The notes beneath the pieces were generated by a model. That model was given only the letters and a program-made list of their open reading frames with translations. It did not search any database and was not told the origin of the DNA. A DNA stretch of 64,000 nucleotides, taken from Blepharisma japonicum (taxonomy: Eukaryota > Ciliophora > Heterotrichea > Heterotrichida > Blepharismidae). The translations under genes were made by a program, and so were the position numbers. This document shows, piece after piece, positions 6,417-45,973 of the stretch (the first letter of the stretch is position 1; each line of letters begins with the position of its first letter). Location of the stretch: NCBI GenBank assembly GCA_949751835.1, contig CATKHK010000003.1:372001-436000 (forward strand). The letters run 5' to 3'.

Positions 6417-7556
6417 TTTGAGCTATAAATAACGAGTACAAGAGTTATATTAATTTTAATATATTATTTCTTAAAAATTAATAAAAAATAAATAAGAGAC
6501 TTTGGATATCTTATTGAATATATTATAGGTTGACACTAAATAAAATATTTTAATATTGATGTTTATTAAGAAAGATCATTCAAAGTTTTATATACTCACA
6601 ATGAGGAATAACCTTTAAAATAGATGTTTAGAGATTGTGATTCTATTAGTAATTAATGATATTAATTTATATACTTACATATGTTTATACAATTATAATT
6701 ATTTTTTCTAAATTTGTAATTAAAGTGCAAATGCCTTCATCAATTATTTTCGAATAGGCGAATAAAATCACAATAGCTTGCTTATAATCAGATTATCATT
6801 CATTATTTGAAGAAAATTTTAAGTTGTATATGGCAGCTTTATAGGGCTTAAAAGCTCAATAACGGATATCATATAAGAGATAATGCAAGATCTGCATATC
6901 AAGAATTGATTTTAACTGATTTACTTAATATAAATAATTGTGATTTATAAGCATTTGTTTTTAAGTGCTTTATTTATTATCCAAAAAACTTTAAACTTCT
7001 TCATTAAAGGGTCGTATCGCGCTTAGAAACACACAGAAATCTTGTGATATTGAGATTCGGTGGAAAGCGAACAAGCCACCTTTTAGCAAGATCAATTAAT
7101 TGAAAAATAGTTTATTCATAAGGTAGTCATTCTAAAAGAACTCTAGTGGTTAAATGTATTTCATCCAGGGTTGTCTGCTTCCCATTTAATAACACCTATA
7201 GCCTAGGGAGCATATTTTTTCATCTTTAGAAAATTTAGTATTAAACGAAGAATCCATGTTGAAAATCCTTCACAAATTTCGTGAGCTTAATACCTTTTTG
7301 CACTTAAATCTTATAATTTCTTCAAAAATATTGACATTCTTTGAATATCCTTTTAATTTCTTCCCTATATATAAATTAAAAAAGTTTTATTACTCACAAT
7401 ATAGAAAGCCTTAAACCTTTAAGATTCAAACCTCGTCTAGCATCAATTTGTCAAAAATTCCAGCCTAAAAGCCAATCTTCATGAAATTTAAAATCCCCTT
7501 ATTTTCAGGAATTAATTATGATTTCGCTTCTAAAATTCAAAACGGATACAATAAAA
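6417..7556. other. Long gene-free tract, 1.14 kb
   Basis: This is the longest stretch without a gene in the window. TAA and TAG occur throughout in all frames, and I found no homologous protein segment. Most of it is strongly AT-rich. Two short islands are less so: about 7007-7085, which includes a GGTGG..CCACC inverted repeat with a 12-nt loop and a following TTTT, and about 7140-7215. These could be a non-coding RNA or an upstream control region of the acidic-protein gene that follows. Neither matches a tRNA or spliceosomal RNA that I can recognise. Confidence 0.4.
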
Positions 7557-10169
7557 ATGTCAGCGAAAATTGTAATTGCCTTGGTCCTGATAGCCTTAGC
7601 AAATACAGCCCAAGGATTGCAGGAAACCCAAAAATTAAGAGTTTTTACCTCTCCTAAACTATTTTTACAAGTCACTCAGGATACTACAACTACTGATGAG
7701 ACCTCCACCGATGATGCATCAACGACATCTGAGTCTGAATCAACAGAAGTAGCGGAAACTAGTGAGACATCTGATATACAAACTTTTGAGGAACTTTTTA
7801 TAACAGAGGAAACAACTGAAGATACTGGATCTGAGTCAACTGATGTAGAGGAATCCAGCGAAACCTCAGATACAACATCAACAGAAGAAACTTCGAATGA
7901 AGAAACTACAACTGAAACTGAGACTAGTGAAGTAAAAGAAACTAGTGATTCCGCAGATGCTGAAACCACTGAGGAGACTTCTAGCGAAGAAGATACTACT
8001 GAATCTCAATCAACTGAAGATGAATCTAGTGAGACTGAAGAAGCAACTGAGGAAACTTCCACAGAAGAATCAAGCGAATCTGAGACTACTGAAGTAGAAG
8101 AGTCTAGCGAGACTTCAGAAGATATTTTTGAGGAGATCTTTACAACTGAAGAAGAATCTACTGAAGATACAACTGAAAAGGAGACATCCACTGAAGAATC
8201 AAGTGAATCTGAATCTTCAGAGTCTAGCAGCAGCTCTGCAGACAGCACAAGAGAATATTTAGAAGTAGAAAAAATTGATGAGGATGACTCTGATCTTGAT
8301 GAAGAAGACGGAGACATCCAAGATGAATTCGAAGACTACGATGAAGAATTAGAAGACACTAAGGATGGAGAGCCAATAAGTGAAGATGATCTTGAAGACT
8401 TAGTTGACGAAGTCGAAGACATTGAAGACGAGTTAGATGACGACGAAACCATCACATATGATGGACAGGAAATCACTAACGAAGATCTTGATGAAGTTGC
8501 TGAAAGCTACGAACAAACTTTGGACGAGATGGACTACTATGACGCTGAATCAATTACTTACGATGAAGAAGGTGACATTGTCTACTATGATGAAGACGAA
8601 ACTGATTGGGCTGAAGCTGAGGCAGAAGCTAAAGAAGTTTACTCGTCTAATGGTGATTCAGTCACTTTGACATATGATGATGTCGATGAACTCATTGACT
8701 TCTGGGAGGAAACCAGAGACCAAGTTGAAAATGGATATACAGTTGAAATCAATGGCAATGCAGTTACTGTTGATGATTGCGATGAAGCCATTGAACAATT
8801 AGAAGAAATTGAAGATGATATGGACGAAGACGATCTTGTAACCGTTGACTTCTCATCTGGAAAATACACTTACACAAGAGACTATGATGAAGCTGTAGGA
8901 TATGAAGAGGAATATCAAGAAGCTGACTTAGAAGATGATGATGTAGAAGACGCTTATGAAGATTTAGTAGAGCTCTACAACAAAGGAATTGTTGACGCAG
9001 AGGATGGAACTGTTATCCTCAGTGCTGACGACATTGACGATATCATTGAAACTCTTGAAGACGCTGAAGATGAAATTGACTCTGACGAGTACTATGTCAT
9101 CAACGGCAAAAACTACACAGCTGAAGATTTGGATGAAATGATTGAAAGCGCTGAAGATCTCATTGATGAGATTGAAGACAACAACGCATATGCCGTTGTA
9201 TATGATACAGAATCCGGAGACCAATATTATATTTCTGAAAAAGACTATGATGAAATGAAGAGTTCTGATGAAGCTTCCACAGCAACTGGCACTACCACTA
9301 ATGGTGACAAAATTTACTCCAATGAGGACTTAGACGAAAACATTGAATTCTACGATGAAATATATGAAGATTTGGATGAAGGCGACACTGTCACAATTGA
9401 CGAAACAACTTACACCTATGAAGACATTGACGAAATTATTGAAAACTACGAAGATGCTGAGGACGATTTAGACGAAGATGATTACTACGTCGTTGACTCA
9501 GAAACAGGAGTCACCTATGCAATTAATGAAGATGAGTATGATTCAGTCACAACTGGGTCTTACTATCAAGACACAGCTCAAGTAGCCAGTGATAGTGGGG
9601 TCACTTACAGCTCAGGAGCCTCATCTGATGAAGACTTAGGTGAAATTGACTCAGATGTAACGATAGAAGCTTATGAAAGTTCAGCAATTTACTCAGAAGA
9701 TGAGGAAGTAGTTGAAGATGAAGAAGAAACAGAAGAAAGCACTAAAGAATATAACTATGAAGGAACTACTGATGAAGATGACTATGATGAAGTCGATCAA
9801 GACGAAGTCGAGGATCTTCAAGACCATTATGACGAGGCTGAAAAACAAGCTGAAACTGGAGTTATTACTGCAAGTGAAGATGATGTGGAAGATGTAGAAG
9901 ATGACTTAGAAGATGTTTCTGACGAACTAGAAGATGCTGAACCAGGAACAACTCTAACTGTAGGATCTTATGAACTTGACTATGAAGATGTCAAGTCTTT
10001 GGAAAATGAGGCTGAAAATGTGGAAGATATTTTGGACGATGATGACTATGAGTCCGTTAGCTATGATGTAGAAACAGAAAATGTTTCATATAATGATGAA
10101 GATGAAGCTGATGATTTATATGAAGACCAAGACGAATACTACGAGTGCCAGGAATGCAAGAATTCTTAG
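7557..10169 (+). CDS. Secreted, highly acidic repeat protein
   Basis: The product has 870 residues and no recognised family. The start at 7557 is chosen over an ATG 39 bases upstream because it places a clean signal peptide (MSAKIVIALVLIALANTAQG) at the N-terminus. About residues 40-240 are Thr/Ser/Glu repeats (TSETS, ESTEE), a mucin-like stalk. From about residue 275 the protein is dominated by Asp and Glu and consists of five copies of a roughly 75-residue two-armed module. Each arm is a helix of the type EDIDEIIENYEDAEDDLDED followed by two short hydrophobic, Tyr/Val-rich strands. There is almost no basic residue in the module region and two Cys in the final CQECKNS tail. A luminal calcium buffer (secretory granule, extrusome or cortical alveolus) or an extracellular matrix protein would fit, but this is inference. 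No TGA codon or intron was needed. Confidence 0.8.
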   Translation: MSAKIVIALVLIALANTAQGLQETQKLRVFTSPKLFLQVTQDTTTTDETSTDDASTTSESESTEVAETSETSDIQTFEELFITEETTEDTGSESTDVEESSETSDTTSTEETSNEETTTETETSEVKETSDSADAETTEETSSEEDTTESQSTEDESSETEEATEETSTEESSESETTEVEESSETSEDIFEEIFTTEEESTEDTTEKETSTEESSESESSESSSSSADSTREYLEVEKIDEDDSDLDEEDGDIQDEFEDYDEELEDTKDGEPISEDDLEDLVDEVEDIEDELDDDETITYDGQEITNEDLDEVAESYEQTLDEMDYYDAESITYDEEGDIVYYDEDETDWAEAEAEAKEVYSSNGDSVTLTYDDVDELIDFWEETRDQVENGYTVEINGNAVTVDDCDEAIEQLEEIEDDMDEDDLVTVDFSSGKYTYTRDYDEAVGYEEEYQEADLEDDDVEDAYEDLVELYNKGIVDAEDGTVILSADDIDDIIETLEDAEDEIDSDEYYVINGKNYTAEDLDEMIESAEDLIDEIEDNNAYAVVYDTESGDQYYISEKDYDEMKSSDEASTATGTTTNGDKIYSNEDLDENIEFYDEIYEDLDEGDTVTIDETTYTYEDIDEIIENYEDAEDDLDEDDYYVVDSETGVTYAINEDEYDSVTTGSYYQDTAQVASDSGVTYSSGASSDEDLGEIDSDVTIEAYESSAIYSEDEEVVEDEEETEESTKEYNYEGTTDEDDYDEVDQDEVEDLQDHYDEAEKQAETGVITASEDDVEDVEDDLEDVSDELEDAEPGTTLTVGSYELDYEDVKSLENEAENVEDILDDDDYESVSYDVETENVSYNDEDEADDLYEDQDEYYECQECKNS
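8385..10112 (+). repeat. Five copies of a two-armed acidic module
   Basis: Helix starts pair up at 8385/8481, 8676/8772, 9027/9123, 9324/9420 and 9888/9984. The two arms of every pair are exactly 96 bases (32 codons) apart, while pairs are 291, 351, 297 and 564 bases apart. Arm A is a 20-residue acidic helix plus a strand pair such as TVEINGNAVTV. Arm B is a helix plus a longer strand pair such as YYVVDSETGVTYAI. The nucleotide sequences of the copies have diverged, so this is an old protein-level repeat and not a recent tandem duplication. Confidence 0.8.
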
Positions 10170-10299: not shown

Positions 10300-11841
10300 T
10301 TATTCTTTTATTTCGGATGCACTTCCAAAAGATTTTCCTAGTGATTTTATTGTCGCCTTTATTTTTCTTGCTTCTTCTAAAGCTTCAGGTCTAATCAAGA
10401 ATGGCTTGATATATTTATTATCAAAATTCCTCCACTTCTGATGAAATGCTGATTTTTCTTCAAGATCCTCTTTTGAGATAACAACTTTTTTATATCCTAA
10501 AGCTTCTTCTCCAATAGACTTTTCAGGGTCTACAACTACAGTTTCCTCTTCTTTTGGATCAACCCACCATACCCACAAAGGCAAAATTGTGCCGAAACTT
10601 AGGATTGTTACAATAACCAAACCTAAAACTGTGATTTTCAAGAGCTTCTCATTTTCTCCATCAACGGTTAGCACTAATGCAAAGCTAATTGCCCCTCTAA
10701 TGATCCCTCCTATTCAACAAACTGCTAATTGCTTAATATTAAGTTTGTGCTTTCCTCCTGATAAAAATCTGACAATTAAACTCAGCCCAAATGTCCCACA
10801 AAGACGAGCAAGAATCGTTCCTATTACCATGAAGAACAAGAAAACCCATGAAATGCTGAAAATATCGTAGCTAAGGGTCGTCATACCCAAATAAGAAAAA
10901 ATTAATGCTTCTGCAGCATCTCCTATGAAATTCATGAATTTCATGCATACAATTCGAGAAGTCGGAGACATGTTATAGAAAGAGTAATGGCCAGAAATAA
11001 TTGATGCTATCAAAATACAAATAACGCCAGAAATTCCAAGCAGCTGAGCTATCGTGTAGCCTGCCCAAGAGACATATAGAAATAACCCAATCATCCTGCT
11101 TGGATCATCACCAATAGATTTAAATATTTTCGTCATATAGGTAGTCAACACCCCAAAGAAAATTCCACATAGAGAACTAGTAATACAGTTAAATAAAAAT
11201 TTCCCTATAAAAATCGCAACCTCTTTAATGCCAATGACGCTTAAATCCATGCTGCTTAAAGTTTGCAACAATAAGATCCCCACCGCATCATTAGTAACAG
11301 ACTCTCCTAATAGGATACTAAAGAGCTTGGGTGTGTTTTCCTCTTTAATCATGGCTAGCGTGCACGCAATATCTGTAGAAGACAAGACTGCACCTATCTT
11401 TAGCCCATCTTGAAGAGGGATATGATAGGTTTTCCCATTTTTTATTATCAAATCAAGCTCGCTGAAAAGGTATGCTTCAAGCCCAATGACTATAAAAGAG
11501 GTCAATGTGCCACCTATGCCGAATAAGAAAATTGAGCCAATGTTTTGGAAGAATCTTTTGCGTTTTAGGTTGTAGCCTGCGTTAAGAATTAGGAAAGGAA
11601 GCATAAAATTGAAGAAAATTGTTTCTTTGAATTCAGATGGGCTTCTTCAGGTCTGATTACAAATTACTGCTCCCATAAGAGATCCAATCGCAATTCCAAT
11701 CATAATTACGACGCCTGACTCATGAAGGAACCAAAACTAAGTAAGCATTACACCTCATTTCTGAAGATAAGTACCGAGGACCATAAAAAGAGTTACAAAC
11801 ATCAGGCATAAGAAAATCTCAAAAATGAGGACGTCGACCAT
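10300..11841 (-). CDS. Na+/H+ exchanger (NHE/CPA1 family)
   Basis: The product has 508 residues after removing one 15-nt intron and reading TGA as Trp. It is a multi-spanning transporter exchanging Na+ (or K+) for H+. After splicing, the N-terminus reads ..GTYLQKWGFWFLHESGVVIMIG, matching the H-E-(S/T)-G region of NHE6/7/9- and NHE8-type exchangers. The ion-binding core is GAVLSSTDIACTLAMIKEE (about 147-165) and ILLGESVTNDAVGILLLQ (about 175-192), with the family's essential ND pair. About eleven hydrophobic segments follow, then a glycine/arginine-rich span near LARLCGTFGLSLIVR. The cytosolic tail is short (about 70 residues), unlike the long regulated tails of animal NHE1. Subcellular location cannot be told from sequence. 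Confidence 0.9.
11737..11751 (-). other. 15-nt intron in the NHE gene
   Basis: On the coding strand the intron is GTAATGCTTACTTAG. It sits between codons, contains an in-frame TAG, and its removal joins KWG to FWFLHESG, restoring the conserved NHE motif. Position 10 is A. Confidence 0.9.
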
Positions 11842-12045: not shown

Positions 12046-13403
12046 TTAATAAGCATTTCTTCTATTATTCTTAGAATTAACCCATGCATTTAAGTACTGA
12101 GAAAACAACTCTTTTGCATTTTCTGGGACATTCGTCAGAAATGGGTGAGCTAAAAGCTCTTCAGAACTAGCGCGTTCTTCAGGACTTTTTACAAGGCAGC
12201 GATTTACAAAGTTGTTGAGGTTTGCGCTCCACTTGGCAGGATTCCTAAAAGTTGGCGGCGCTCCTGATGCAGTTAAGTATAAAGCTTTCATAGGATTCAT
12301 ATGAAGATTTGGTGGCTCCCCATCAGCCATCTCAAGAGCTACAATTCCAAGTGACCAAATATCTACTTTTACATCATATAAAGTTCCAGTAATCAGTTCA
12401 GGTGCCATTCAGCTTGGAGTACCTACAACTGTAGTCCTTTTATTTTGCTCATTTGTTAGCTGTGCTGCATATCCGAAGTCCCCAACTTTTACACTGCCAT
12501 CAAGAGCAATCAAAATATTATCACTTTTTATATCTCGATGAATCCTATGTTGTCTATGCAGGAACAATAACCCTCTCAAAATTTCTCTGAAAACATATGC
12601 CATCGTGTCTTCACTGATTTCTCCTGCTCTATCTAGCACCAAATCAGTCAAGCTTCCTTTCATCAACTCTACTACAATCCACAAAAATCCGTTATAATCA
12701 TAAGATTCATAATAATTAATCACATTTGGGTTCGCGCTCATAAGTGTCAAAGCAATTTCATTCAAAATTTGTTCCCTTTCTTTAAGATTTTTCGGTTTAA
12801 TTTTCTTCAACGCAAAAGATTCTGATGTTTCTTTATTTTCGACGTAAAATACAGCCCCAGATCCTCCTTCACCCAATTTGCCTTTTATTTGATACAATTC
12901 TTCAGGGTTATTTTTGATTAGTTCAACTCTTTCGTGTGATCTTATGGTGAACTAAATATGAAGCTTACACTTTCTCTATGTGGCATTGGGGCTACACCAT
13001 CGATTACTAGGCTCATGACTCTTCTTATATCTTCTTTATTTTCTTCAACTTCATTTGAAGGGATCCCTGCCTCTATTGCTATGACTTCCCAATCATCTAA
13101 ATTGATTTTGGAATTTTCAACAACTTTTGGGGATGAATCGGGCAGTGATGGCAATATCGAGCTCTGCGAATTTGCAAGCATAGATAAATTTCCTGAAAGG
13201 CCAGAGTAGCAAGCTTTACAGTATCGTCTAGCAGAGAGAAAACCTGATCTTTTTTCTTTTATGCTGCATTCTCTACAAAAAATAGTTTCTACATAAAGAT
13301 TACTACATATCCTGCATTTCCTTCGCTTGGAAGTCAATTTGAAGGTTTTTGCACACCCAGAGCACTTGTAGTGCGGATCAAAAATGCTAGCAAAAACATC
13401 CAT
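12046..13403 (-). CDS. FYVE-like zinc finger + PAK/STE20-type protein kinase (copy 1)
   Basis: The product has 446 residues after removal of a 17-nt intron and reading TGA as Trp in GTPSWMAPEL. Residues 14-66 form a FYVE-like finger: CSGC, RRKCRIC, FCRECS and RRYCKACY give eight Cys in the FYVE pattern with basic RR(K)C. Around 103-135, DDWEVIAIEAGIPSNEVEEN.. resembles the PAK autoregulatory segment, but no CRIB motif precedes it. The kinase domain (about 164-430) is complete: GEGGSG loop, ALKKI lysine, IHRDIKSDN, GDFG, then APELITG and DIWSLGIVALEM. It is probably an active Ser/Thr kinase recruited to phosphoinositide-bearing membranes; that role is inferred. A paralogue with the same domain order lies at 44642-45973. 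Confidence 0.9.
12952..12968 (-). other. 17-nt intron in kinase copy 1
   Basis: On the coding strand the intron is GTAAGCTTCATATTTAG. It lies at the same place as the 15-nt intron of the paralogue (just before the VELI / VQLI segment). Only 17 nt keeps the frame into ..FTIRSHERVELIKNNPEE. It is two bases longer than the other introns of the window. Position 10 is A. Confidence 0.82.
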
Positions 13404-18107: not shown

Positions 18108-21100
18108 ATGGTCATCTCTCTCTTCTTCCTATTTTTGGCCCTTGCTTCTTCAAATATCGTGCCAGATCAATCTCATCCCTACCCCATTTCTCCTTCTAGC
18201 CCCAACGCATATGATACTGGTGTGGACTACTGATTTTACATTTCAATTGACAACCGCATTTCAAAGGGCGACTTTTTGAATATTATCTTTCCTTCACAAT
18301 TTTCTGATATCAGCATGGCAGGCATCACAGCCTGTTACATTAACGGTGTAAGCCATTCCTGCAGCAAATCTAGCACAAATCAAGCTCAAATTACAGCGTC
18401 CCAAATAATTCCAGGGAACTCCCGTTTACAAGTAAAAATTCCTGGCATTGCAAATCCTGCAAGCGAAACTGGGACTGGCTGGTTCCAGATATTTTCACAA
18501 TATGCTACTGGATTACAGATTATTGACTCAAATGATGCGTTTGGGGTGATTGGATTTGCCCCAGCAGTGTCTAGCGTTACTGGGACAATTGCAATCGATT
18601 CGACAGGCGGGACAAGTGTGGTGGCAGTTAGTGGGAATTATGTTTTTACTATTACCCTGACTAGTGCTATTTCAGCTGGAACTCAGTTTAGAGTTAAGGT
18701 TCCTAGCCCTTATAGCATCACTTCTACAGCTACTTGCACAGTGGTAACTACAACAACGCTGCTTGGAACTTTTTCATGTAGTAAAGTTAATGGGAATTTA
18801 GTTATTAGTGGATTAACTTCTACTGTAGCTTCAGGAACTGTGGTTACCATTAAGGTATCTGGAATTTTAAACCCTGGCTACGTAATAGCAGCCTCTACTG
18901 TTAATTTTATTATAGAAACTTTGAGAGAAAATACAATCATAGTCATCCACAGAGCTACAATACCGAATATTTTAGGAGTTGCAGGAACATTGACTGGAAT
19001 TACCTTGGCTCCGTTCACAACTAGCTCTCGATTTACTAATGGTAATTCTCTATATACAACTTTAACCTTTACAACGGCTACTGCAATCCCTCAAAGCGGA
19101 TCTATTATTTTAATATATGATGTTGCTACTCCTACTACTATTGATTCTTCATCATGCTTAGTCCTTTCTGGTGTTCCCAACACTTCCTCTGGCACTCGTC
19201 CTAGCTGCTCAATATCATCAGACACCACTGCAACTATTACAAGTTTTGGAGCTATAGCTGCAAAAACTACTATTAAGATCGTTAATTTGGTTTCGAGTCT
19301 ATCTGCTAGTATAGGGCAAGTCAAGGTCTATACTTATGACTCAAGTTCAAGACTCATTGATCAAGACTTGACTCATGGAGGAGTTACTATAGAATCAGTC
19401 TACTCTTTTAATTCGGGATCATCTGTCACATACTCACCACTCACTGCTTTAACACAAGGAACAATCACAATAGGAATTAACCCTTATTATAATGTAGCTG
19501 CAAATGATGTCATAAATATTTATCTGCCTAATAATTTTACAATAGCTTCAACTCAGACATATACATGCAAAATAGGAGCGAACACTCCAGCTGCATTTTC
19601 AGTAGTCAATGGGATTTTCAGCATAACTGTTGATTCAAGTACAACTTTTAGCACAGGAAGTGCTACATCAATTGTATTAAGCGCAAGTGGTTCTGGAATC
19701 CAGTTTCCACCAAACGCGACTTCGTACTCAAATATTATAGAATGAGTCATCAGCATCACCCATTCCGCAAGTTCAGAAGCAGGAACTTTGACATCATCAC
19801 TAACCGATGCTCCTTTTGTGACTGCTTCTGGCCATACAGAGCTTTTTTACTCTGGAGAATTATCAAAGTACTCTGCATATACTTTTAAAATCCAGACTGA
19901 TCTTGACCTTTGAAGCAGTGGAACTAGGAAATTTATGCTTTCTTTGACATTTCCAAGCGATTATGCTAGTGATTTAGGAACCGGACTTTCTTCATCTGGT
20001 AGTATTCCTATTTATCTTTCTTCTTTTACCACTACGAATTATACAACTCCATTAAGCTGCATCTTAACTCCAGGCACAAACCCAGTTATAGTAATATCTG
20101 GTTTTGATCCTATTAAGGCTGGCACAATAATTTCGTTTACTTTTTTTATTAAAAATCCTTCATCTGCTGGAAGTGGATCAATATCAGTGCAAACTTACTA
20201 TATAGATTACAACTCTATAACTACAAATTGTCAACAAGGAAATTTGGTTGTGAATTATGCATCATCAGCTGCAGCTTGAAGCACAATGACAGCTTCAACA
20301 AGAAACTCGACAGTTGCCAGTACTTCTACATGGTTTATATTGGATTTATTACTAAGTACAGCTTCTGTTGCTAATGATTATCTGATGATCAATCTTCCAA
20401 CTGGATTTACTATAGACACTAAAAATTTTGTTGCAATGATAGATGGAACTGCAGTCGATAAGTATGTGATTTATGCGAATTCATATCAGCCAAGTATTGT
20501 TTTAAGCTTAGGAACAATAATATTAAATGCTAGCCCATCTACTGATAATACACTTATACTTAAAGGAATTATCAATGCTCCATATGTAGGCTCTGGGTCT
20601 GGAAGTACAGGTGCAATTGGTTTAGGACTAATTGATGGGACTTCACTTCAAATACTAAGTTATTCAACAGAAACTTTGTCAGCTATAACTTCAGATGTAT
20701 TAAAAGTGACAATAATACCTAATAGCTACATAGCTAGCCAGTGTGATGTTACCTATAAGTTTAGTATTAATACGACCCATGGTATCCCATCTGGTGGGAC
20801 AATTCAGATAACTTTTCCAGTAGGATTTGACTTGACTCATTCTAGTTGCTCTTATTCATACTCCATATCAAGTACAAATACTGTCTGTGCAAAATCAGGC
20901 CAAACAATATCTGTGAGTGGTTTTAATGCCATCACAAGTGGAACTTCATTTAATGTTAATGTTCTGTCTGTTATAAATCCAAACGCAGGAGCTAGCGGAA
21001 CTTTTCCCGTTACAACTACCTATACGTCAAGTACATCAACTATTATTGAAACAAAGACAGTAGCTGGCTTTACTTTGACAACAACTAGCTCAGAGGAGTA

Positions 21101-24092
21101 CTCAAATATATATAAAATTTCATTCTACCCCAATACAACTGGAACTAAAGGCCAAATGCAGCTTGACTTTGCATTAAATTCGTCAGTTCCTACACAAGGG
21201 GACCTTTATATAGAGTTCCCTAGCAGTTTTTCATCTTTGCCATCTACAATGACAAACTTAAATTGCCTTTTAAATGTACAATATTCGTCTTGCTCTATAT
21301 CAGGGCAGAAGATCACCATTATTCCTGCTACAAGTTTCCCAACAGGCATTAATATGACTTTGATTATCCCTGAAATCACAGTACCATCTACAAGCTCGAC
21401 TCCAGTTAAAATTTCAGCTTACCTGGGTTCTACAATGATGGCAGAAAATCCTCCAAGCCCAGGAAGCTCATTTTACATCACAACAGGAACAGTCACTCCA
21501 GGAATAATCCAAGGAACCTTGACATCTTGGCCAAAGAATGCAGCAGAAATAGCATTTTACCAGTTCGTGCTAAAATCAGCGACTGGAATCACAACGACCA
21601 CTCAAATTTTGGTATATTTCCCATCAGAGTTTCCAAGAAACCTTGGAGACTTAATGGCATATTCCAACTGCAGTACTAGGATGGATGGGAAATTGCTGAT
21701 TTTATCTAAAAGTATGATTCATGGGGTGTTAATTCAAGGCTTTGTAACTGTCGCCTCAAATCAAGCCTTTACTATTTTATTTGAAGGTGTTAGAAACCCT
21801 ACATCGCCGACTTCGACTTCAACGTTTTCTATAGTAACATTGCTCAATGGAGCAATTATAGACTCTTTGTCTACATCTCTGACTGTCAGCATTTCATCGA
21901 TTCCATCTATTATGGATTTAGTAAGTATCAGTCTTGAAGATTATTCTATAAGAGCTACCACTAACTACACATTTTTAGCGAATCCTTCATCTATCCCTTC
22001 AGCTTTCCAAGTGTGGGTATGGTTTCCATTTCCGCAGTTTTCTATAGAGCTTTACGGACTAGGTGATATTTTTAGTTGTAGCAGTAAATCTGTTTCTAAA
22101 ACGACAGGAACCAGCACAACTTGGCTGACAGCTACTCCTTCTTGTTCAAATACCCATAAAAACCTTGTAGTTTTCGATGCAATTAACTCAGGGTTTTCTT
22201 CTTCAAACTACTTGCAAATCACTATAGAAAAACTAAAATCAACGGGCTCTGCTGGAATTGTTAATAACTTTGTGATGCTGATTTTTGATAAATCTTCATC
22301 ATCGGCTACATATAGAAATTATGGGATTGCTTCGACAGATGATAATGTTGAATATACAGAAGATAAAGCCCAGATTTTTGTTGGGTCTCAAGATGCAAGA
22401 ATTTCCGTTTCTCCAGGGACCACAAGCAATTTCACTATATACACATCTAGCGAATATATGCCAGCAAGACAAACATTGACGTTTACCTATACAATTTTAG
22501 GCATTAATGCAACCACCAATATAGCTATTGAGCCAAATATCATTCAAATCCTGCCAGGACAGTCATCAGTGACTTGTTTTGTGACTTGCTCTGCAGACAT
22601 TGTGAGAGGAAACTATACAATAAAATGGAATATGACTGGAGATACATATGGACTTTATAGTGAGCCTGCATTTACCTTATTAGATGTTTCTTCTAGACGA
22701 ATTATACAGAGAAAGGTGTCATTTGAAGGAATTCCTGCATTGATGATTGGAGGAACGTCAATACCTTTATATGTGTACTTAGAAGCTGCTCCCGAAGATG
22801 GCCTGACGATTATTGCCAAGCCGCCTAGCCTTATTACAGTATCACCCATATCATTTTTACCAGGCCAGTTCGTTACCAGTTTTACTGTTACTGTAGCTTC
22901 TACGGCATATGTAGGAAGTCAGACCATAAATTTCACCTTATCAGGAGCAAACTCAAACTGGTTTTATTTAGACTCTACCTCTATAAGTTTTGATTTAACG
23001 AACTATGATGTCACAGCTCCGTCTATATCTTCATTTATCGTAAATAATCCAAAAAATAGAAATTATATAGATATTACAATGCAGACCACTGAAGCATGCA
23101 CTATTTATTGGACTTTTGGAGAAAGAGGATTAGATGTGCCAAGTAATGCAACTTTGATAGGCTCAGCTAAAAATAATACAGCTGGGTATCATCTTGAATA
23201 TATTGGAGATAGTTGGCTTTATAACTTCAGGGTAAATAATCTAATAGCCGAACATGACTATGTTATGTATGGAATTTTGGTAGATTTGAATAATAACCAA
23301 ATGGATAGCGTTTTTGGTGTCGACTTATATACTGATGATCTCCCCGATTCTGTACAAATAACACTGAAATTTGGCAGCCTAACTCCAACTGCAGATCAAG
23401 CTCAGTCAACTGTGATAGCTGCTCTAAGCACCCTTTTAGACTACGACCAATCCTTAATTTCTTATGTCCAACCTACATCTAGAATGCTTGACGCTCTTAC
23501 ATCAGCTTCTTATATTATTTATAACAGTGCTACATCTACAGCATTAGCCCCACAAGAAATAGTTAGATACATGCTAAACTCCAATGATCTTAACAGACTT
23601 CTAGCACCATCAAGCATATCAATTGATACTACTTATAATATTGTAAAATCAATGGTTTATATATCAAATCCAAGGCCAGCATGATATTCATACCCAACTG
23701 TTAAGACAACAACAAATATTACAGTTAGTGTTGCTCTAGCAGTAACCACTTCAGGAACACTTTATGCTGAAATTATTCCAGATGGAACTGAAATTCCTTC
23801 ATCAAGGCAGGTAACTTTAGGACTAGATGCATTCGCAGATAAAACTACAGTGTATTCTCAAGCCATAGTGGCAAATACGTCAGTAACCGTGACGTTTACT
23901 GGTATGAGTCCAGCAAGCAGCTATACTATTGTGATAACAGCGAAAAATAATGATGTAAGACTTCCAAGAATTATGAGCGATAGAGTTATGGCAGCGCTAG
24001 AAATTATTACGCAAGCTACGTCTGCTACGACCACTACTACGAGTGAGGGGATTTATTTGCTTATTTCGTGCGCTTTCTCATTATTTTTATAA
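18108..24092 (+). CDS. Giant GPI-anchored-type surface protein with beta-rich repeats
   Basis: The product has 1994 residues in one frame, with four TGA codons read as Trp after the first exon-like stretch and one near the N-terminus (..GVDYWFYISID). It begins with a signal peptide (MVISLFFLFLALASS). It ends in a Thr-rich spacer plus a short hydrophobic tail (SEGIYLLISCAFSLFL), the layout of a GPI-anchor signal. About ten repeats of 105-150 residues fill residues 25-1350. Each shows the pattern: strands, FP.(G/S)F or LP.GF, a Cys pair, ..SG(F/L)..I..GT, and IxNPxxxG before a final strand. This is an Ig-like/adhesin-type beta-sandwich array. N-glycosylation sequons are frequent. The role is probably cell-surface coat, adhesion or mating contact; no specific family is claimed. 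Confidence 0.85.
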
Positions 24093-24705: not shown

Positions 24706-25674
24706 TTATTCAACTAACTTCCCATTTATCCATTCTCCTTCAATCCGTTCTCCTCTGCTTCCAATATATGTCCCTTTGCCATGCTGTTTTCCATTTTTCC
24801 AATATCCCATATATTTCTTTCCGCTAGGCCATTCAAATTCTCCATACCCCTCTTTCTTATCATTCACATATTCTCCCCTATAAACTCTTCCATCAGGCCA
24901 TACAAATTTTCCACTCCCATGCATTTTATTATCCCTCCATTCACCTTCATATACTTTTCCGTCTTCCCATGTGTAAATTCCTCTACCATGTATGTTGTTA
25001 TAGAAGAATTCGCCTTTATATATAGAATTTTCTGCCCAATGGAATTCTCCATATCCATGCTTTAGGCCGTTAAGGTAATTTCCACAGTAAAAAGCTCCAT
25101 CAGTCCAAGTTTCAATACCACAGCCTTCTTGCTTGTCATCGACTCATGATCCTTCATAGGTTGCGCCATGGAAATGGATGTACTTTCCTCTTCCATGAGC
25201 TTTATCATTTTTTCATTCTCCTTCATATACATCTCCATCTGCGTGAATTAGTCTGCCATGGCCATTGGCTCTATCATCTTTTCAATAGCCAACGTATTTT
25301 GACCCATCTTCCCATAGGAAAATGCCTCGTCCTGATTTCTTGCCGAATTGATCAAGCTGGCCTATATAAGTTCATCCTTCTTTAGATCGAATAGGAGGGC
25401 CAAGGTCTTCTAAGCAATTATCATCAGATTTAAATTGATATTGACCTAACCTGGATTCGGCGGCTCTTGCTTTTTCGCTTGCAGAGGAATAGTAGTCTAA
25501 ATAAAGCTTCTTAGATGTGTCTTCAGTGAGAGGATTTGTAAGAACTGAGCCTGGAAGCTCACTTTCTTTAAGAGACTTTTCACGTTTTCGTTCGTTAGAT
25601 ATATTAACGATTTCCATATCTTGGTGCGCTTCATTTTTTGAACCATCTCCAAAGCAGCCACAGCTGTTTCCCAT
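24706..25674 (-). CDS. MORN-repeat protein with acylated N-terminus
   Basis: The product has 322 residues, read through several TGA codons (Trp in the repeats). It begins MGNSCGCFGDG, a good N-myristoylation site (Gly2, Ser5-type context) with Cys5 and Cys7 available for palmitoylation, so it is probably tethered to a membrane. From about residue 100 to the end there are about nine MORN repeats (YxGxWKxxxxHGxGxxxxxDG), including EGEWKNDKAHGRGKYI and YRGEYVNDKKEGYGEFEW. MORN arrays bind membranes and scaffold cortical and ciliary structures in alveolates. The first 98 residues carry SKLYLDYYSSASEKARAAES, the helical lead common in this protist subfamily. A second MORN gene lies at 27214. Confidence 0.92.
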
Positions 25675-26853: not shown

Positions 26854-27213
26854 ATGTCATCTTTAGAATAATCATTTTTTAGAATCTAAAATTCATTAAA
26901 TATAATTAATTAAAAGCTGAAAATAATTTTAAAAGCTACAATTAATTACTTATGAAGAATGGAGCGAGAAAAAACATTTAAATAATTTTCTATCTTCAAA
27001 TACTAACGAAAACATGAGCTGCTAAAGATATTCTATCAAAATGGCAACTGAATAAATAATTTTTATAATTTTTGCACTACTCTGCTTTATCAATGGGAAT
27101 TAAAATTGCGTTCTCATAAATGAGTTGCTAGCTAGTATTAATAAACATAAGATTTTTTTGAGAGCTCAATCTTCCAGTGCAAAATCAGGTAAAAATAATA
27201 ATTTTTATCTATC
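26854..27213. other. Intergenic, 360 bp
   Basis: AT-rich, stop-rich; nothing recognised. Confidence 0.5.
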
Positions 27214-28119
27214 ATGGGAGAGGAGAACACAGGCTCTCTATCGAATGATTCACCATTTACTAGATCAAGCCTAAACCTTACAGAAATTCCAGAGGATCAA
27301 GTCCCAGATTATTCCACAGAAACAACTCGACAAATTTTATCTAGACTTGGCCCATACAATCCTCCTCCTGCTCCTGAAGATTTAGCCCAAAGGATAAAGC
27401 TTGGCCCTGTCCAAGTCGAGAACCGCGCAATTTATATTGGCGAATGAAACCAAAAACAGCAGAAATGCGGCTTTGGTATCCAAATTTCTGCAGATGGAGC
27501 TCGATATGAAGGCTATTGAAAGGAAGACAAAGCTCATGGGCAAGGAAGACTAATATACGCTGATGGAGATATATATGAAGGTGAGTGAAAAGAAAATAAA
27601 ATGCAGGGAGAAGGCACTTATTGGAGAACAGATGGCTCTAGATACAAAGGTACGTTCGAAGATGGCCTTGAGCATGGATATGGGCTGGAAGCTTATCCTG
27701 ATGGCGGACTTTATGAAGGCGAATATTTGAATGGAAAAAAGAACGGCAAAGGAAAATTTATATGGCCTGATGGAAGTGTATATGAAGGAGAGCTCCTTGA
27801 TAATAATATCCATGGAATTGGGACATATACTTGGGCTGATGGAAGAAAATACGTTGGGGAGTGGGCATTTAATAAGAAAAATGGTGCAGGAACTTTCACT
27901 ACAAGCGATGGAAGCATTTACATAGGAGATCATAAAGATGATAAAAGGCATGGCCATGGGATGCTGGTTTGACCAGACGGCAGCACTTATGAAGGCAGCT
28001 GAGTAAACGGAAAGCAGGATGGGCTTGGATTCTTCACAACAACTGCTGGAAAGAGAAAAGAAGGCGAATGGAGTGACGGAAAGCGAATAAGATGGATAGA
28101 AGATGCAAAACATAAATAG
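27214..28119 (+). CDS. MORN-repeat protein (second copy)
   Basis: The product has 301 residues. Conserved Trp of the repeats is often TGA (EGYW, EGEW, ..VWPDG). The N-terminal 75 residues are unlike the other MORN gene: disordered, with [29 protein letters not shown] and no myristoylation glycine context of note (MGEENTG does carry Gly2). Eight to nine MORN repeats follow, for example [18 protein letters not shown] and [16 protein letters not shown], ending in a basic tail. Opposite orientation and low nucleotide similarity to 24706-25674 argue for an old paralogue pair, not a recent duplication. The role is probably a cortical or ciliary scaffold. Confidence 0.92.
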
Positions 28120-31083: not shown

Positions 31084-32865
31084 TTAGAGTTTAACCATAA
31101 TGTTTTGGGCTAAATTAAACTTGAAGTATCTCTCTTGCTTCAAGCTAGTCATAATATATATAGCTCCTTTATTATAAGAATAATAAACTTGAGCAGGGTT
31201 TTTACTAATCAGCGAGTTTCCTATTTGTTTCCAAGCATTTTCATCCCCTATTTCACTTTCGTATATTTTCCCACCGCATTCAATTAAATAAAATCTTTCA
31301 ATTTTAATCAATAATTTTCTTTTTTCTGCTGCGAAATTGTAAGATATTTTTGTAAAAGAATTGTTAGCAATTGAATATCTCAAAATATGTTTACTTGCGT
31401 GTCCAGAAATCAAAATATTACCATTATTAGCTACACAATGGCAATAACAATCGCCTTGTGGCAACGGATTTAAATTGATTCATCGGTTTCCATCCAAATC
31501 AAAACGTTTCGATAACGTTGAAATGTTACCATTAGGATTTAAACCCCCAAAAACGTAAACATTTCTATTGTAATAGATAGCTGATGAGATAGCGCATTGT
31601 TTTCCAACTGGTAATGTTCGAACTCTGAAATTCTCATCAATTATCAATGAAATTCCAGAAGATGGAGCTTTTCCATAGCAGAACAGCTCACAGTTGGGAA
31701 TTTGAGCTATACAAGTATCCCAATTTAATATTTCTGAACTTTCCAATATTTTTATCTCTTCTCTTTCACTTTCAGTGTCGAAAATCATCAAATTAGTCCT
31801 ATCGTTTTCTTCTTTTGTAAGATAAAGAGATGTTCTCTTATGAAAGGCCTTGATATAGTCTTTATAAGCTTGATTGAGTTCTTGACTTGAGTTGCAAATA
31901 TCTCTTAGCTCATTTTCATATAATGAGCATGTTTTTCTGAAGTCCCATTCTATTTCTGGATCAATTGTATTACCTAAAATCTCTGATGTTTTAATTTTAA
32001 GATCATTTATTTTTGAGCTTATAGAAGAGTTTTCTAGTATTAATTGCTTTTCATCAAGGCCTGATAATTTTTGATTGATTTCTTCTGAGAGGGCACGAAT
32101 TTTTGAGTTAAGAAAGTCCATTTCTTTTTTTCTTTTAAGCTTGCTTGCTTTTTTTCAGTCATCAAATTCTTTTTTGTTTTTCTTGACCTCTTTAAGAATG
32201 TCAGAATAAGAACTTTTTATATCTGGTGACTTATCATCAGGCATTTTCTTATTTGAATTGATTCGTTTACCATGTTTCTCTAAGACTTTTTCTATTTTTG
32301 AGAATCTGCTCTCGAAAAGGTTTTCTAGTTTTTCTTTAATATAGCTTTCTATCAATTTATCAATTTCTTGGCTTAGTCCGTACAAAGCATTTGCATTACT
32401 GTAAGAATCTGTGTTTATTGGAATCAATGCTTTAATTTTTTCAATAGCTTCATCAGGGCTTAACGATAATAATTTTAAAATTGGATCTTGCTCTAGCTTT
32501 GATAACTTTTTAGTTTGAGAGATCTTTTCAAACAAGTTATTTATCTCTGTCGAATTAGACTCCAATTTCTTTAAAAGGTTCTCAAAATTATTTTCTGAGC
32601 TTCAAAGATTTTGACTGAAGGAATTTAACATTTTCTCTTTCAATTGCTCATGTTTTAGCTTTTCTGCAGCGAGAAATTCAAGAATAGCTTCCTTTGTCTC
32701 TGCTGTAGGAATCAAAAATATTGGGGCAAATTTATGGACTCTTCCAGATATCTCGCAGTGGTTAATGAAGTGGATTTTGCATAAGTAAGCTTCAGGCGAT
32801 GTACATTGACATACATACTCAGCCTCATTCTTGCAATCTTGCTCTAAGCATTTCTTTGCCTCCAT
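31084..32865 (-). CDS. B-box-like zinc finger, coiled-coil and kelch-type protein
   Basis: The product has 593 residues, with three TGA codons as Trp. Residues 5-45 are a B-box-like zinc site: CLEQDCKNEAEYVCQC, then YLCKIHFINHC, with an H at the end of the finger. About 55-330 is helical and charged, with coiled coil (..KSSYSDILKEVKKNKKEF). About 345-593 contains kelch-type beta-propeller blades: YYNRNVYVFGGLNPNGNIST, then LSKRFDLDGNRW, then NGNILISGHASKHILRYSI. The layout recalls TRIM-like proteins but with a kelch end and no RING, so E3 activity is not implied. Its neighbour at 33604 has exactly the same codon length. The role is unknown; it is probably a scaffold. Confidence 0.82.
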
Positions 32866-33603
32866 ATTATAAGTGAGATGCTTAAGTTTAACTTATTTAT
32901 TTTGCTTATCAAGTTTGTGAAAATAAAAATAATAAGAAAATTTTCAAGGCTCGAAATTATTAAAGTATGTTTAAGTAAGCTCATGACATAGCAAGCCTTC
33001 TTATCTGCTATAAATATTATAACTTAACTTTCATAGCGTTGAAATTAAGAAATATAGCTTATGAATTTTGTTCCAACATTTAATTTTAAGCATTAGTACT
33101 TAAGAATCACTAATTATCTTCTTGATTGTCTATCAAATTGATTAAGCATGAAAATTGTCGTTTTATATATATATTTTTATTTACTACTCAGGACATAAAA
33201 ACAATAGTTGCATTGCAGATCATCAATATGGGCCAAATTTCTTAAGGCTTATTCCCCCACCATTGATTGAACCAATCGCGATTGTTCGACAAGAATAGAT
33301 TAATATCAGCTCGAAAAAAATTTAAATTAAAAACACTGCCCATATTATGATCATGATGAAGAACGAGTTGAAGAAGGAGTTTTAGAAGAAGATATGAAAA
33401 TCGTTTAATCAAAAATGGGTTTGTCTTGCTCAATCAAGAATTAAAAATATTATCTGGCTTATAAATATAAAATGTTTCGATAAAAATGCTATTCTTGGAA
33501 TACAAATAATACTAAAATTCATTATCAAGAAAAATCGATTTAAGGTGTAATTAAAAAATAACTATTATCAACTTGAAATGACAATATAGAACTTGATTAT
33601 AAT
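32866..33603. other. Spacer between divergent kelch-type paralogues, 738 bp
   Basis: A 63-codon minus-strand frame (33242-33433, ..NNRDWFNQWWGNKP) is open but does not start at a convincing ATG context and matches nothing I know. The rest is AT-rich and stop-rich. It may hold a further decayed copy, but I could not align one. Confidence 0.4.
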
Positions 33604-35385
33604 ATGGAGGTAAAGCAGTGCTTTGAGGTAAACTGCTTGGAAGAAATTGAATATATATGCCACTGCTCTTCTCCTGAGACTTACTTATGCAAGGTGCACT
33701 GAATGAAACATTGTGAATTACCCGATCGAGACCATGCCTTTGAGTCTATTTTCTTAAAGCCTTATAAAGGAACAAAAGAAGGAATTCTTAAATTAATTGA
33801 AAAAGAAAAATCTAAAAAAGAGAAGAATAAAAATAAAATCATTTCTTCATTTAGTAGAAATCTTTGCAATTCAGAAAATAATATTGAAGATTTTTGTAAA
33901 ATGTTGGATGCTGATTCAATTGAATTAGGAAATTTATTTGATAAGATTTCTCAAATCGACAAAATTTCAAGGTTTGATCAAGACCCAATTATAAAATTAT
34001 TGACTATGAAACCTGATGATGCTATTGAGGATTTTAAAAAATTTATACCGTCAAAGGAAAGATCATATAATAGCGTTAATTTATTTTGCGGTCTCAGTGA
34101 TGAAATCGCAAAAATGATTGAAAGTTTCATTAAAGACAAATTTGAATCCTTTCTTGACAAAAAACTTTTAAATTTAGAAAAGACTCTTGAGAGACATAAC
34201 AAAGAAATTGATTCGAATAAATTAATAGAATCTAATCAAATAAAAGAAGCAATGAACCAGATTTCTGATCTAATTAATAAAACTGAGAAAATTAATAAAG
34301 AATTCGAAGACTACAAACAATCATTAGAGCAAAAATTACAAAATGAATTAAATGACCTTAATGCTCAGTTACAAAAACTTAAAAATTGGTTGCCTGATTT
34401 CCAGCTTCATGATATAAGAAAAAAAGAATCTGAGATTTTAGATTTGCCAAATAATCTAAAAATAGAAAAAGATTTCAGAATAACGTGCCGATTATTTGAA
34501 GAAGAGCTATTGGCGCTTCGCAGCTTTCATCCGCCACTAAGCCAAGCTTATCAAAATTATTCAAAAGCTTATCATCAAAAAGTTTCTCTATATCTTATTG
34601 ATGAAGATAGTATCAGTAGCAAAACTAATTTATTTATCTCTGACACTGAAAACGAGAGAAATGAAGTTAAGGTGCTTAATACATTAGCACCATTAAAATA
34701 TGGCACATGCATTGCTCCATTACCAAATGGCTAATTGTTCTGTTTTGGGAATATTCCACCTTCTGGTATTACATTAATAGCTAATGAATATTGCGAGGTT
34801 CGAAGCCTGCCATTTGGAACTCCTTGCTATTGATCATCAGCTATTTATTTTAATAGAAGTATTTATTGCTTTGGAGGATTTAATAATGACTATCTGAGTT
34901 TATCTGAAAGATTTGATATAGATAGAAACAAATGAGTAAAATTAAACTCAATGCCAAAAGCAGATACTGGCTGCCATTCTTTAGTTTTTAATGGAAATAT
35001 TTTAATATCTGGTAGTGTTAACAGAAATCTTATTCGATATTCAATTGACAACAATACTTTCACAAAAATTAATTATGAATTCTCGGAATTTAAGAGAAAG
35101 ATTTTGATTAAAGTTGAAAGATTTTATTTGATTGAGTGTGGAAATGGATGGATTTATGAAAGCGAAAATTGCGATGACACTAGTTGAAGACAAATAGGAA
35201 GTTCTATAATTAGCTATAGCTGTCCTTATCAAGTTTATTGCTCTTATAATAAAAATGCAATACACATTGGAATAAATTTGCCTGGAAAGCAATACTATAA
35301 GTTTGATTTAGTGCAAAATCAACTAATAAGTATAACAGAAGAAAAAAATTGAATTTTTAATAGTAAAAATTGTTTATCTTGATAG
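33604..35385 (+). pseudogene. Kelch-type paralogue with one in-frame TAA
   Basis: The frame from ATG 33604 to TAG 35385 is 594 codons, exactly the length of the paralogue at 31084-32865. It is interrupted once, by TAA at 34732-34734 (after IAPLPNG and before LFCFGNIPPSGITL). The paralogue has a Glu codon there (IPNCELFCYGK). TGA codons elsewhere fall at conserved Trp. The zinc site, coiled coil and blades (ERFDIDRNKWVKLN, NGNILISGSVNRNLIRYSI) are otherwise intact, and the 650 bases after the TAA contain no further stop. No short intron removes it. The sequence could be a very recent pseudogene, a truncated 376-residue protein, or a gene using readthrough; sequencing error is also possible. 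Confidence 0.65.
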
Positions 35386-44641: not shown

Positions 44642-45973
44642 ATGGACATAGTTGCAAGCCTTTTCAAAAATATCAAATGCTCAAACTGCAACGAGCGACT
44701 CAAACTAATAGCAAAACGCCGAAAATGCAAAATCTGCAGTATTTTTTATTTAGAATTCATATTCTGTGCAAAATGCAGTATCAAAGAAGTCCCTGCTCAT
44801 TTAGGATTCATGTATGCTCGCCGCTATTGCTACCGCTGTTACATCAATATAAAAGTGAATATAGAACCACGCTCCCACAACTCCATCCATGAAGAAGAAG
44901 AAAACAATTCTTACGAGTTTTTAGAAGACAAGCCCGAAGATGGAGTCAAAGTCATTGCAGAAGCTGCAGGGTTTCCTACCGAAGAGATTGAAAATAATCG
45001 CCAAAACATCATTGAAGCTATGGGTGCGCTTGTAAAAGGTGTAAAACCGCTACCTTCTCGACATAGTGTACCATTAAAATAGGTTGACAAGGTGTTAAGT
45101 CAAACAGTACAGCTTATAGAAGACGATCCCAATAACCATTACAAAACCATTAGAAAAATTGGTGAAGGAGGATCAGGCAGCATTTTCCTAGTCGAGCATT
45201 TAGAAACAAATGAAAATTTCGCAATGAAAAGAATTCGTATAAAAAATCCAAGACAAAAAAACCAAATTCTCAATGAAATAAACTGCACGATATTGAGCCA
45301 GAATCCGAATGTAGTGACTTATTATGAGTCTTATTTATTTGACGATTTCATATGAATCATTGTAGAAGTCATGAAAACAAGCTTAACTGAGCTAGTTATG
45401 GATAGATGGGGAATGATCCCAGAGCATCTCATGGCATACATTTTCAGAGAAGTTTTAACCGGCTTAGCTAATTTACACCATGACCATAGAATTCATCGGG
45501 ACATAAAAAGTGACAATATTCTAATTTCATGGGACGGAAAAGTAAAGCTTAGCGATTTTGGATACGCAGCACAGCTTACGACTGAAGAAGATAAAAGAAC
45601 GACTGTAGTGGGAACTCCTTGCTGGATGGCTCCAGAATTGATTATAGGGAGCAGATATGATACAAAGGTCGATATTTGGTCACTTGGAATTGTGGCATTG
45701 GAGGTTGCAGAACGAGACCCACCATTTTTAAAAGAAAACCCCCTGAGAGCGCTTTATATGATTTCTAATGCTCCTTCTCCTGCTTTAAAAAAACCCGAAG
45801 AATGAAGTGATGAGTATGTTAACTTCGTAAGTTTGTGTCTTGTTAAAGACCCAGAACATAGGCCGAGCTCAGATGAGTTGTTGGCCCATCCTTTTATTCG
45901 AAGTGCCCCTAGCGATGCAGAATCTCTCTTTTGTGAGTATTTCCAAGAATGGGCATTAAAAAGGAAAAAATAG
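44642..45973 (+). CDS. FYVE-like zinc finger + PAK/STE20-type protein kinase (copy 2)
   Basis: The product has 438 residues after removal of a 15-nt intron, with two TGA as Trp (DDFIWIIVEV and PEEWSDEYV). Residues 14-65 form the FYVE-like finger (CSNCNERL, RRKCKIC, FCAKCS, RRYCYRCY). About 100-135 holds the PAK-like segment VIAEAAGFPTEEIENNRQNI with no CRIB before it. The kinase (about 160-425) has GEGGSG, FAMKRI, IHRDIKSDNIL, LSDFG and GTPCWMAPEL, all catalytic residues intact. Domain order and intron position match copy 1 at 12046-13403, but the finger and linker have diverged, so the duplication is old. It is likely a membrane-recruited Ser/Thr kinase. Confidence 0.9.
45068..45082 (+). other. 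15-nt intron in kinase copy 2
   Basis: GTACCATTAAAATAG, between codons, containing an in-frame TAG at its end. Removal joins RHS to VDKVLSQTVQLIEDD. Position 10 is A. Confidence 0.9.

Follow-up and report, generated by a model that had tools for sequence, protein, structure and literature searches.

The window, a 64,000-nucleotide stretch of a Blepharisma japonicum contig, carries on its forward strand a single intact reading frame that runs from an ATG at 7557 to a TAG ending at 10169 and encodes a protein of 870 residues, as taken from the open reading frame listing and its translation. The start was set at 7557 and not at the in-frame ATG at 7518 because two complete paralogues begin with MSRKL and MSKL. 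A first-pass annotation of this DNA had described a gene for five acidic modules behind a signal peptide and a Thr/Ser/Glu stalk, and this description holds: the ten module arms lie in frame at the ten codons it had given, the N-terminus is hydrophobic by eye and residues 21-240 are 28% Glu, 24% Thr and 20% Ser. The features of the gene are as follows.

7557..10169, + strand: coding sequence, one open frame, 870 residues, TAG stop
7557..7616, + strand: hydrophobic N-terminal signal, residues 1-20, end approximate (sequence by eye; similar in the C90 and C1 paralogues)
7662..7682, + strand: leader motif FLQVTQD (FIQLSQE in C90, FLQLGQD in C1)
7683..8276, + strand: Thr/Ser/Glu stalk (composition)
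8304..8603, + strand: module W1, aligned as three arms, with the two-arm core starting at 8379 (HMM and alignment)
8613..8915, + strand: module W2, aligned as three arms, with the two-arm core starting at 8670 (HMM and alignment)
8919..9272, + strand: module W3, aligned as three arms, with the two-arm core at 9021-9260 (this core was folded by itself)
9255..9566, + strand: module W4, aligned as three arms, with the two-arm core starting at 9318 (HMM and alignment)
9567..9800, + strand: linker without a recognisable module (only a 13.9-bit HMM match, under the decoys)
9801..10124, + strand: module W5, aligned as three arms, with the two-arm core starting at 9873 and a cap spacing of 35

The layout is a hydrophobic signal, a leader with FLQVTQD, the stalk up to about residue 240, an acidic linker and five modules, where the limits of W3 slightly overlap those of W4. 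Besides the N-terminus, the protein is without a further hydrophobic segment by eye. Asp and Glu make up 38.7% of the whole protein and Lys and Arg 2.5%, for a net charge of −315; across the four module-bearing proteins of the genome, the Asp and Glu share is 34.7-40.8%.

Next to the gene, a frame on the reverse strand at 10300-11736, which we take to be Na+/H+ exchanger-like, runs through TGA with table 4 and stops at 10714 with table 1. A repetitive protein of 1994 residues with a hydrophobic N-terminus (18108-24092, +) is a single open frame only if TGA encodes Trp. Blepharisma stoltei is described as reading UGA as Trp and as having mostly 15-16 bp introns and a somatic genome of 41 Mbp with 66% AT (PMC9942806). 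Six candidate introns of 15-16 nt were seen here; they came without a matched control and one of them lies antisense inside the gene at 7557..10169, so that we do not take them as proof. The translations, by eye, also include two STE20-like protein kinase frames that resemble each other and lie in opposite orientation (12046-12951, −, and 45083-45973, +) and two MORN-repeat-like proteins, again in opposite orientation (24706-25674, −, and 27202-28119, +). The frames at 31084-32892 (−) and 33562-34734 (+) are related and divergent, with CLEQDCKNEAEYVC and CFEVNCLEEIEYIC near their starts, and the former has a kelch-like appearance near its end.

Paralogues and the shared leader motif

The searches of the organism's own genome covered 45.2 Mb in 224 contigs; the member counts are lower bounds. 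All of the relatives found sit in this same genome: a C90 paralogue of 1281 residues with eight modules, a C1 paralogue of 303 residues with a single module and a C54 paralogue, a 674-residue frame cut by the contig start that holds one complete module (L010:1-2025). The number of modules per complete paralogue ranges from 1 to 8. Judged by their sequences, these proteins form a small family within one ciliate genome. Further weak matches were obtained in C33, C41 and C101 (E 0.4-1.1), and a match of C1 to C63 (E 0.034) falls in a GTPase-like frame and was taken as chance.

Over 126 codons of the C-terminus, the W5 end of the protein shares 75% amino acid identity with C54. In these codons the proportion of sites that differ between the window gene and C54 is 0.625 for synonymous and 0.140 for nonsynonymous sites, which for the C-terminal module gives a dS of 1.345 and a dN of 0.155 (dN/dS about 0.12). 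The C-terminal module is thus under purifying selection. In the module tree only one of the 12 inner branches, that of W5 with C54, is starred, and we therefore read no order of module duplication from it. In the tree, C90 modules 1 and 4 group together, as do 2, 5 and W2; neither grouping is starred, and the pattern hints at block duplication. The C90 paralogue (L011) also contains a simple D-x-DD-[IV]-DE repeat between two module blocks, at about residues 666-740, and the stalk of the C54 paralogue is a long SSEET-type repeat.

All three complete members have a hydrophobic N-terminus by reading of the sequence, and behind it, about 35 residues in, the common leader F-[LI]-Q-[LV]-x-Q-[DE]. 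When the leaders behind the signal were compared in pairs, 5, 6 and 36 of 2000 shuffles scored as high as the real pair, the last number being that of the C90-C1 comparison. A DNA pattern derived from the three leaders has 62 matches in the genome vs 18 for the pattern reversed. Thirty-six of the 62 were examined. Three of these are the family members and 33 lie elsewhere: one (C22) in frame in an acidic Thr/Ser/Glu protein, two in frame in other long frames (L071; L077) and 30 in frames that continue for no more than 116 residues past the match. Searched against the whole genome, the 53-residue C1 leader gave no match beyond itself. The C22 protein (G000:C22:346847-348112, −; locus L063 1110-2405) has 422 residues and its own signal, and contains FLQLSQD once exactly inside and a looser LFSQLSEED behind the signal. 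The leader motif may mark a sorting or processing class, to which the C22 protein possibly belongs as well.

Module arms and predicted fold

The arms had been proposed to be Asp/Glu-rich helices followed by short hydrophobic strand pairs, and both the sequence and the AF2 model of the W3 core bear this out. They had also been placed exactly 32 codons apart in all five pairs. Aligned by homology, the cap-to-cap distance is 32 residues in W1-W4 and 35 in W5 because W5 has three extra residues before its first hairpin; the start assigned to the fifth pair, 9888, does mark an arm, but lies three codons further downstream than the starts chosen in the other pairs. Across the 15 complete modules of the family, the spacing is 32 in ten and 31, 33, 34, 35 and 35 in the rest.

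The gaps between the pairs are variable, as had been noted, but they contain another, weaker arm before each pair, and the original two-arm unit is thus a core within a larger one. HMMs of arm 1 and arm 2 match each other with mean scores of 17.0 and 18.8 bits, where shuffles reach at most 5.5 and 7.3. A joint HMM of the two arms matches this preceding arm 0 with a mean of 10.0 bits, vs at most 5.6 in shuffles (200 shuffles each); since the rows are related, these comparisons are not independent tests. Based on these matches and the aligned arm before each core, we take the unit as three arms with a length of about 100-118 residues.

Asp or Glu accounts for 33-51% of the residues in the 15 modules, and one may ask if this is plain acidic low complexity, with fold and repeats as artefacts of composition, which we consider most improbable. 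Such richness does inflate scores: with an HMM built from the five window modules only, the highest score among 603 decoys (shuffled, 5-mer-block-shuffled or reversed) was 35.6 bits, a level attained by block shuffling, and the three weakest C90 modules (36.9, 38.0 and 39.1 bits) exceed the decoys by only 1.3-3.5 bits. Nevertheless, all eight C90 modules, at 36.9-84.2 bits, lie above every decoy and the complete C54 module reaches 100.6 bits; a partial C54 match (32.2 bits) and several in C90 (34.8 bits at most) do not exceed the best decoy and were not counted. The same HMM gives the acidic, secreted C22 protein only 22.9 bits, under the best of its 100 shuffles (26.0), and no module was recognised in it. 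Over the 15 modules, 16 of 100 alignment columns are at least 80% hydrophobic, vs a mean of 2.7 and a maximum of 7 in 60 shuffled and realigned sets, and with C54 left out (14 modules) there are 12 mostly hydrophobic columns vs a maximum of 7 in 60 sets. These sets replaced within-sequence shuffles without realignment, which were dropped as too easy a null. A rotated and realigned control reached up to 15 mostly hydrophobic columns vs the 16 observed, and 14 vs 12 with C54 left out, and gives no support against low complexity; we gave it little weight because rotated true homologues stay alignable, which makes it a poor null. Low complexity is also hard to reconcile with the low dN/dS at the C-terminus and with the confidence of the fold prediction below. 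Hydrophobic autocorrelation is weak, with a best lag of 7 (z 3.7), while lags 97 (z 2.9) and 32 (z 1.9) stay under 3.3, the 95% threshold for the highest z over all lags. Support for the module comes from alignment and fold, and not from periodicity.

AF2 folded the 80-residue W3 core from a 14-row alignment with a pLDDT of 90.5 and a pTM of 0.74, in the order helix, hairpin, helix, hairpin, helix (H2-18, E25-27, E30-32, H34-53, E58-62, E67-71, H73-79). In a model of W3-W4 (216 residues, 12 rows; pLDDT 75, pTM 0.46), the arms run on through both modules as helices 9-24 residues long that are interrupted by strands. In this model, the block means for the W3 arm-0 helix are 43-60, with a single strand behind it in place of a hairpin, and in W4 the confidence drops to 57 where arm 0 lies. 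Neither arm 0 nor the position of one module relative to the other should be trusted in the model. AF2 does not model charge repulsion, and therefore the fold on its own may depend on cations, or its stability may be lower than its pLDDT implies. Taken together, the HMM scores above all decoys and the confident model of the core agree with the earlier claim of a defined alpha-beta-beta domain distinct from plain low complexity, and on this alignment and prediction the two-arm core is a real domain.

Searches beyond the genome

The first-pass annotation knew no family with this pattern, and we found no convincing relative of the protein or the module in Pfam, NCBIfam, PDB sequences or PDB folds. 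The best match of the whole protein to Pfam-A has 15.8 bits, under a cut-off of 25, and the five single-module sequences with Pfam bit scores are all under the curated cut-offs; for the other modules, the best E-value among the matches listed (25 of 42 families) is 0.00057, to PF12503 and in one module. In a set of 5.8 billion proteins no homologue was found for P0001 240-870 (E 0.01; 7995 candidates scored), nor, at E 10, for P0001 480-670 (7987 scored) or C1 92-200 (254 scored), and the P0001 searches are weaker than they look because only the candidates sharing most words, probably acidic low-complexity proteins, were scored. Among prokaryote genome contigs 80 stretches matched a sequence pattern and none is a relative. 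A literature search, judged by titles and the opening of abstracts, found no paper on the 870-residue protein.

The strongest lead is a weak match of the modules to phrog_118, a phage head-tail adaptor family that we take to be gpW-like helix-hairpin-helix, with five of the 15 modules at E ≤ 10 (best 0.003) and residues 3-54 of the W3 core on profile positions 6-57 of 76 (E 0.0055). Six of the 15 modules match phrog_3550, of unknown function (best E 0.0009), and W4 matches Pfam Phage_attach, a head-tail protein, at E 0.47 and 11.5 bits (cut-off 26). Reversed modules reached a similar best E of 0.0057 to another family, although they matched 47 families vs 81 and with less recurrence. Since composition alone comes this close, we read the phage match as a shared simple helix-hairpin-helix arrangement and not as kinship. 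Among the closest known folds are the designed HEEH mini-protein 5uyo and other helix-hairpin-helix folds. Within the searches made, the fold and its multi-arm organisation appear to be new.

A possible role in a granule or coat matrix

The calcium-buffering or mineral/matrix role that had been suggested earlier is plausible and fits a net charge of −315 over 870 residues. The signal, the absence of an ER-retention end, the shared leader, the variable module number and the extreme charge all fit a bulk matrix protein, and the range of 1 to 8 modules between complete paralogues is in itself what such a protein could show. We therefore favour, at about even confidence and with ion binding and location as the inferred parts, a matrix protein that binds cations in a secretory granule or a coat. 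In such a mechanism, the protein would enter the secretory pathway by its N-terminal signal, and would then either be stored together with its paralogues in a secretory granule or be exported to a coat outside the cell. Divalent cations, most likely Ca2+, would neutralise its net negative charge of 315, and this neutralisation would let the folded arms pack into a dense matrix.

A more specific version, which we regard as quite doubtful, is that the fold is itself cation-gated. With a third to a half of its residues acidic and hardly any basic, the module would stay expanded until luminal Ca2+ neutralises it and would then collapse into helix-hairpin arrays, the granule being loaded by cation-driven folding and swelling on release. 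This would be an ionic spring evolved independently of the Grl and trichocyst proteins, with array length (1 to 8 modules) tuning its stroke.

Extreme acidity and an N-terminal signal would equally suit a resident, calsequestrin-like luminal calcium store of the ER or the cortical alveoli, serving contraction and ciliary reversal. However, the C-terminal ends of four members (ECKNS, SKES, VEVED and VTLDS) include none that is KDEL-like, which argues against an ER resident, although alveoli could use other retention signals, and we consider such a store unlikely. Calsequestrin is made of thioredoxin-like domains; no calsequestrin appeared among the sequence or Foldseek matches listed, which is weak evidence. 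The likeness lies in its being an acidic luminal protein, described as binding calcium with high capacity and low affinity (PMC7582152). A component of the cyst wall or surface coat, with a glycosylated or phosphorylated stalk and modules that bind cations or mineral, seems improbable to us as well. The Thr/Ser/Glu composition of the stalk is in its favour, as are the 88 S-x-E motifs of the C54 paralogue vs a shuffle mean of 45.5 (z 9.3), S-x-E being presumably the Fam20C kinase motif. In the stalks, however, S-x-E is not significantly enriched (window 15 vs 12.1, C90 13 vs 10.2, C1 1 vs 2.7). A search of the genome for Fam20C gave no match and is uninformative, since none of its 14 controls was recovered. 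Blepharisma stoltei is described as making walled resting cysts (PMC8891572), which again suits a cyst-wall component.

As an apparently undescribed folded domain with 33-51% Asp or Glu, the module is a good test case for hyperacidic folding and cation gating, and the single-module C1 paralogue keeps such a test small. If the protein is indeed that of a granule matrix, a ciliate lineage would have built its secretory matrix on a fold unlike the one reported from Tetrahymena. Acidic secreted proteins that serve as a matrix or a buffer are in themselves a known kind. The Tetrahymena Grl proteins and the Paramecium trichocyst matrix proteins are likewise ciliate, secreted and acidic, and the Grls are reported to be acidic, to bind calcium and to assemble into crystalline arrays within mucocysts (PMC6189453). 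The granule or coat matrix that we favour would work in a similar mode to these granule-lattice proteins, although with a different fold that is apparently undescribed: by their description the Grls have predicted coiled-coil domains (PMC6189453), whereas the protein presented here is predicted to repeat a short helix and a strand pair.
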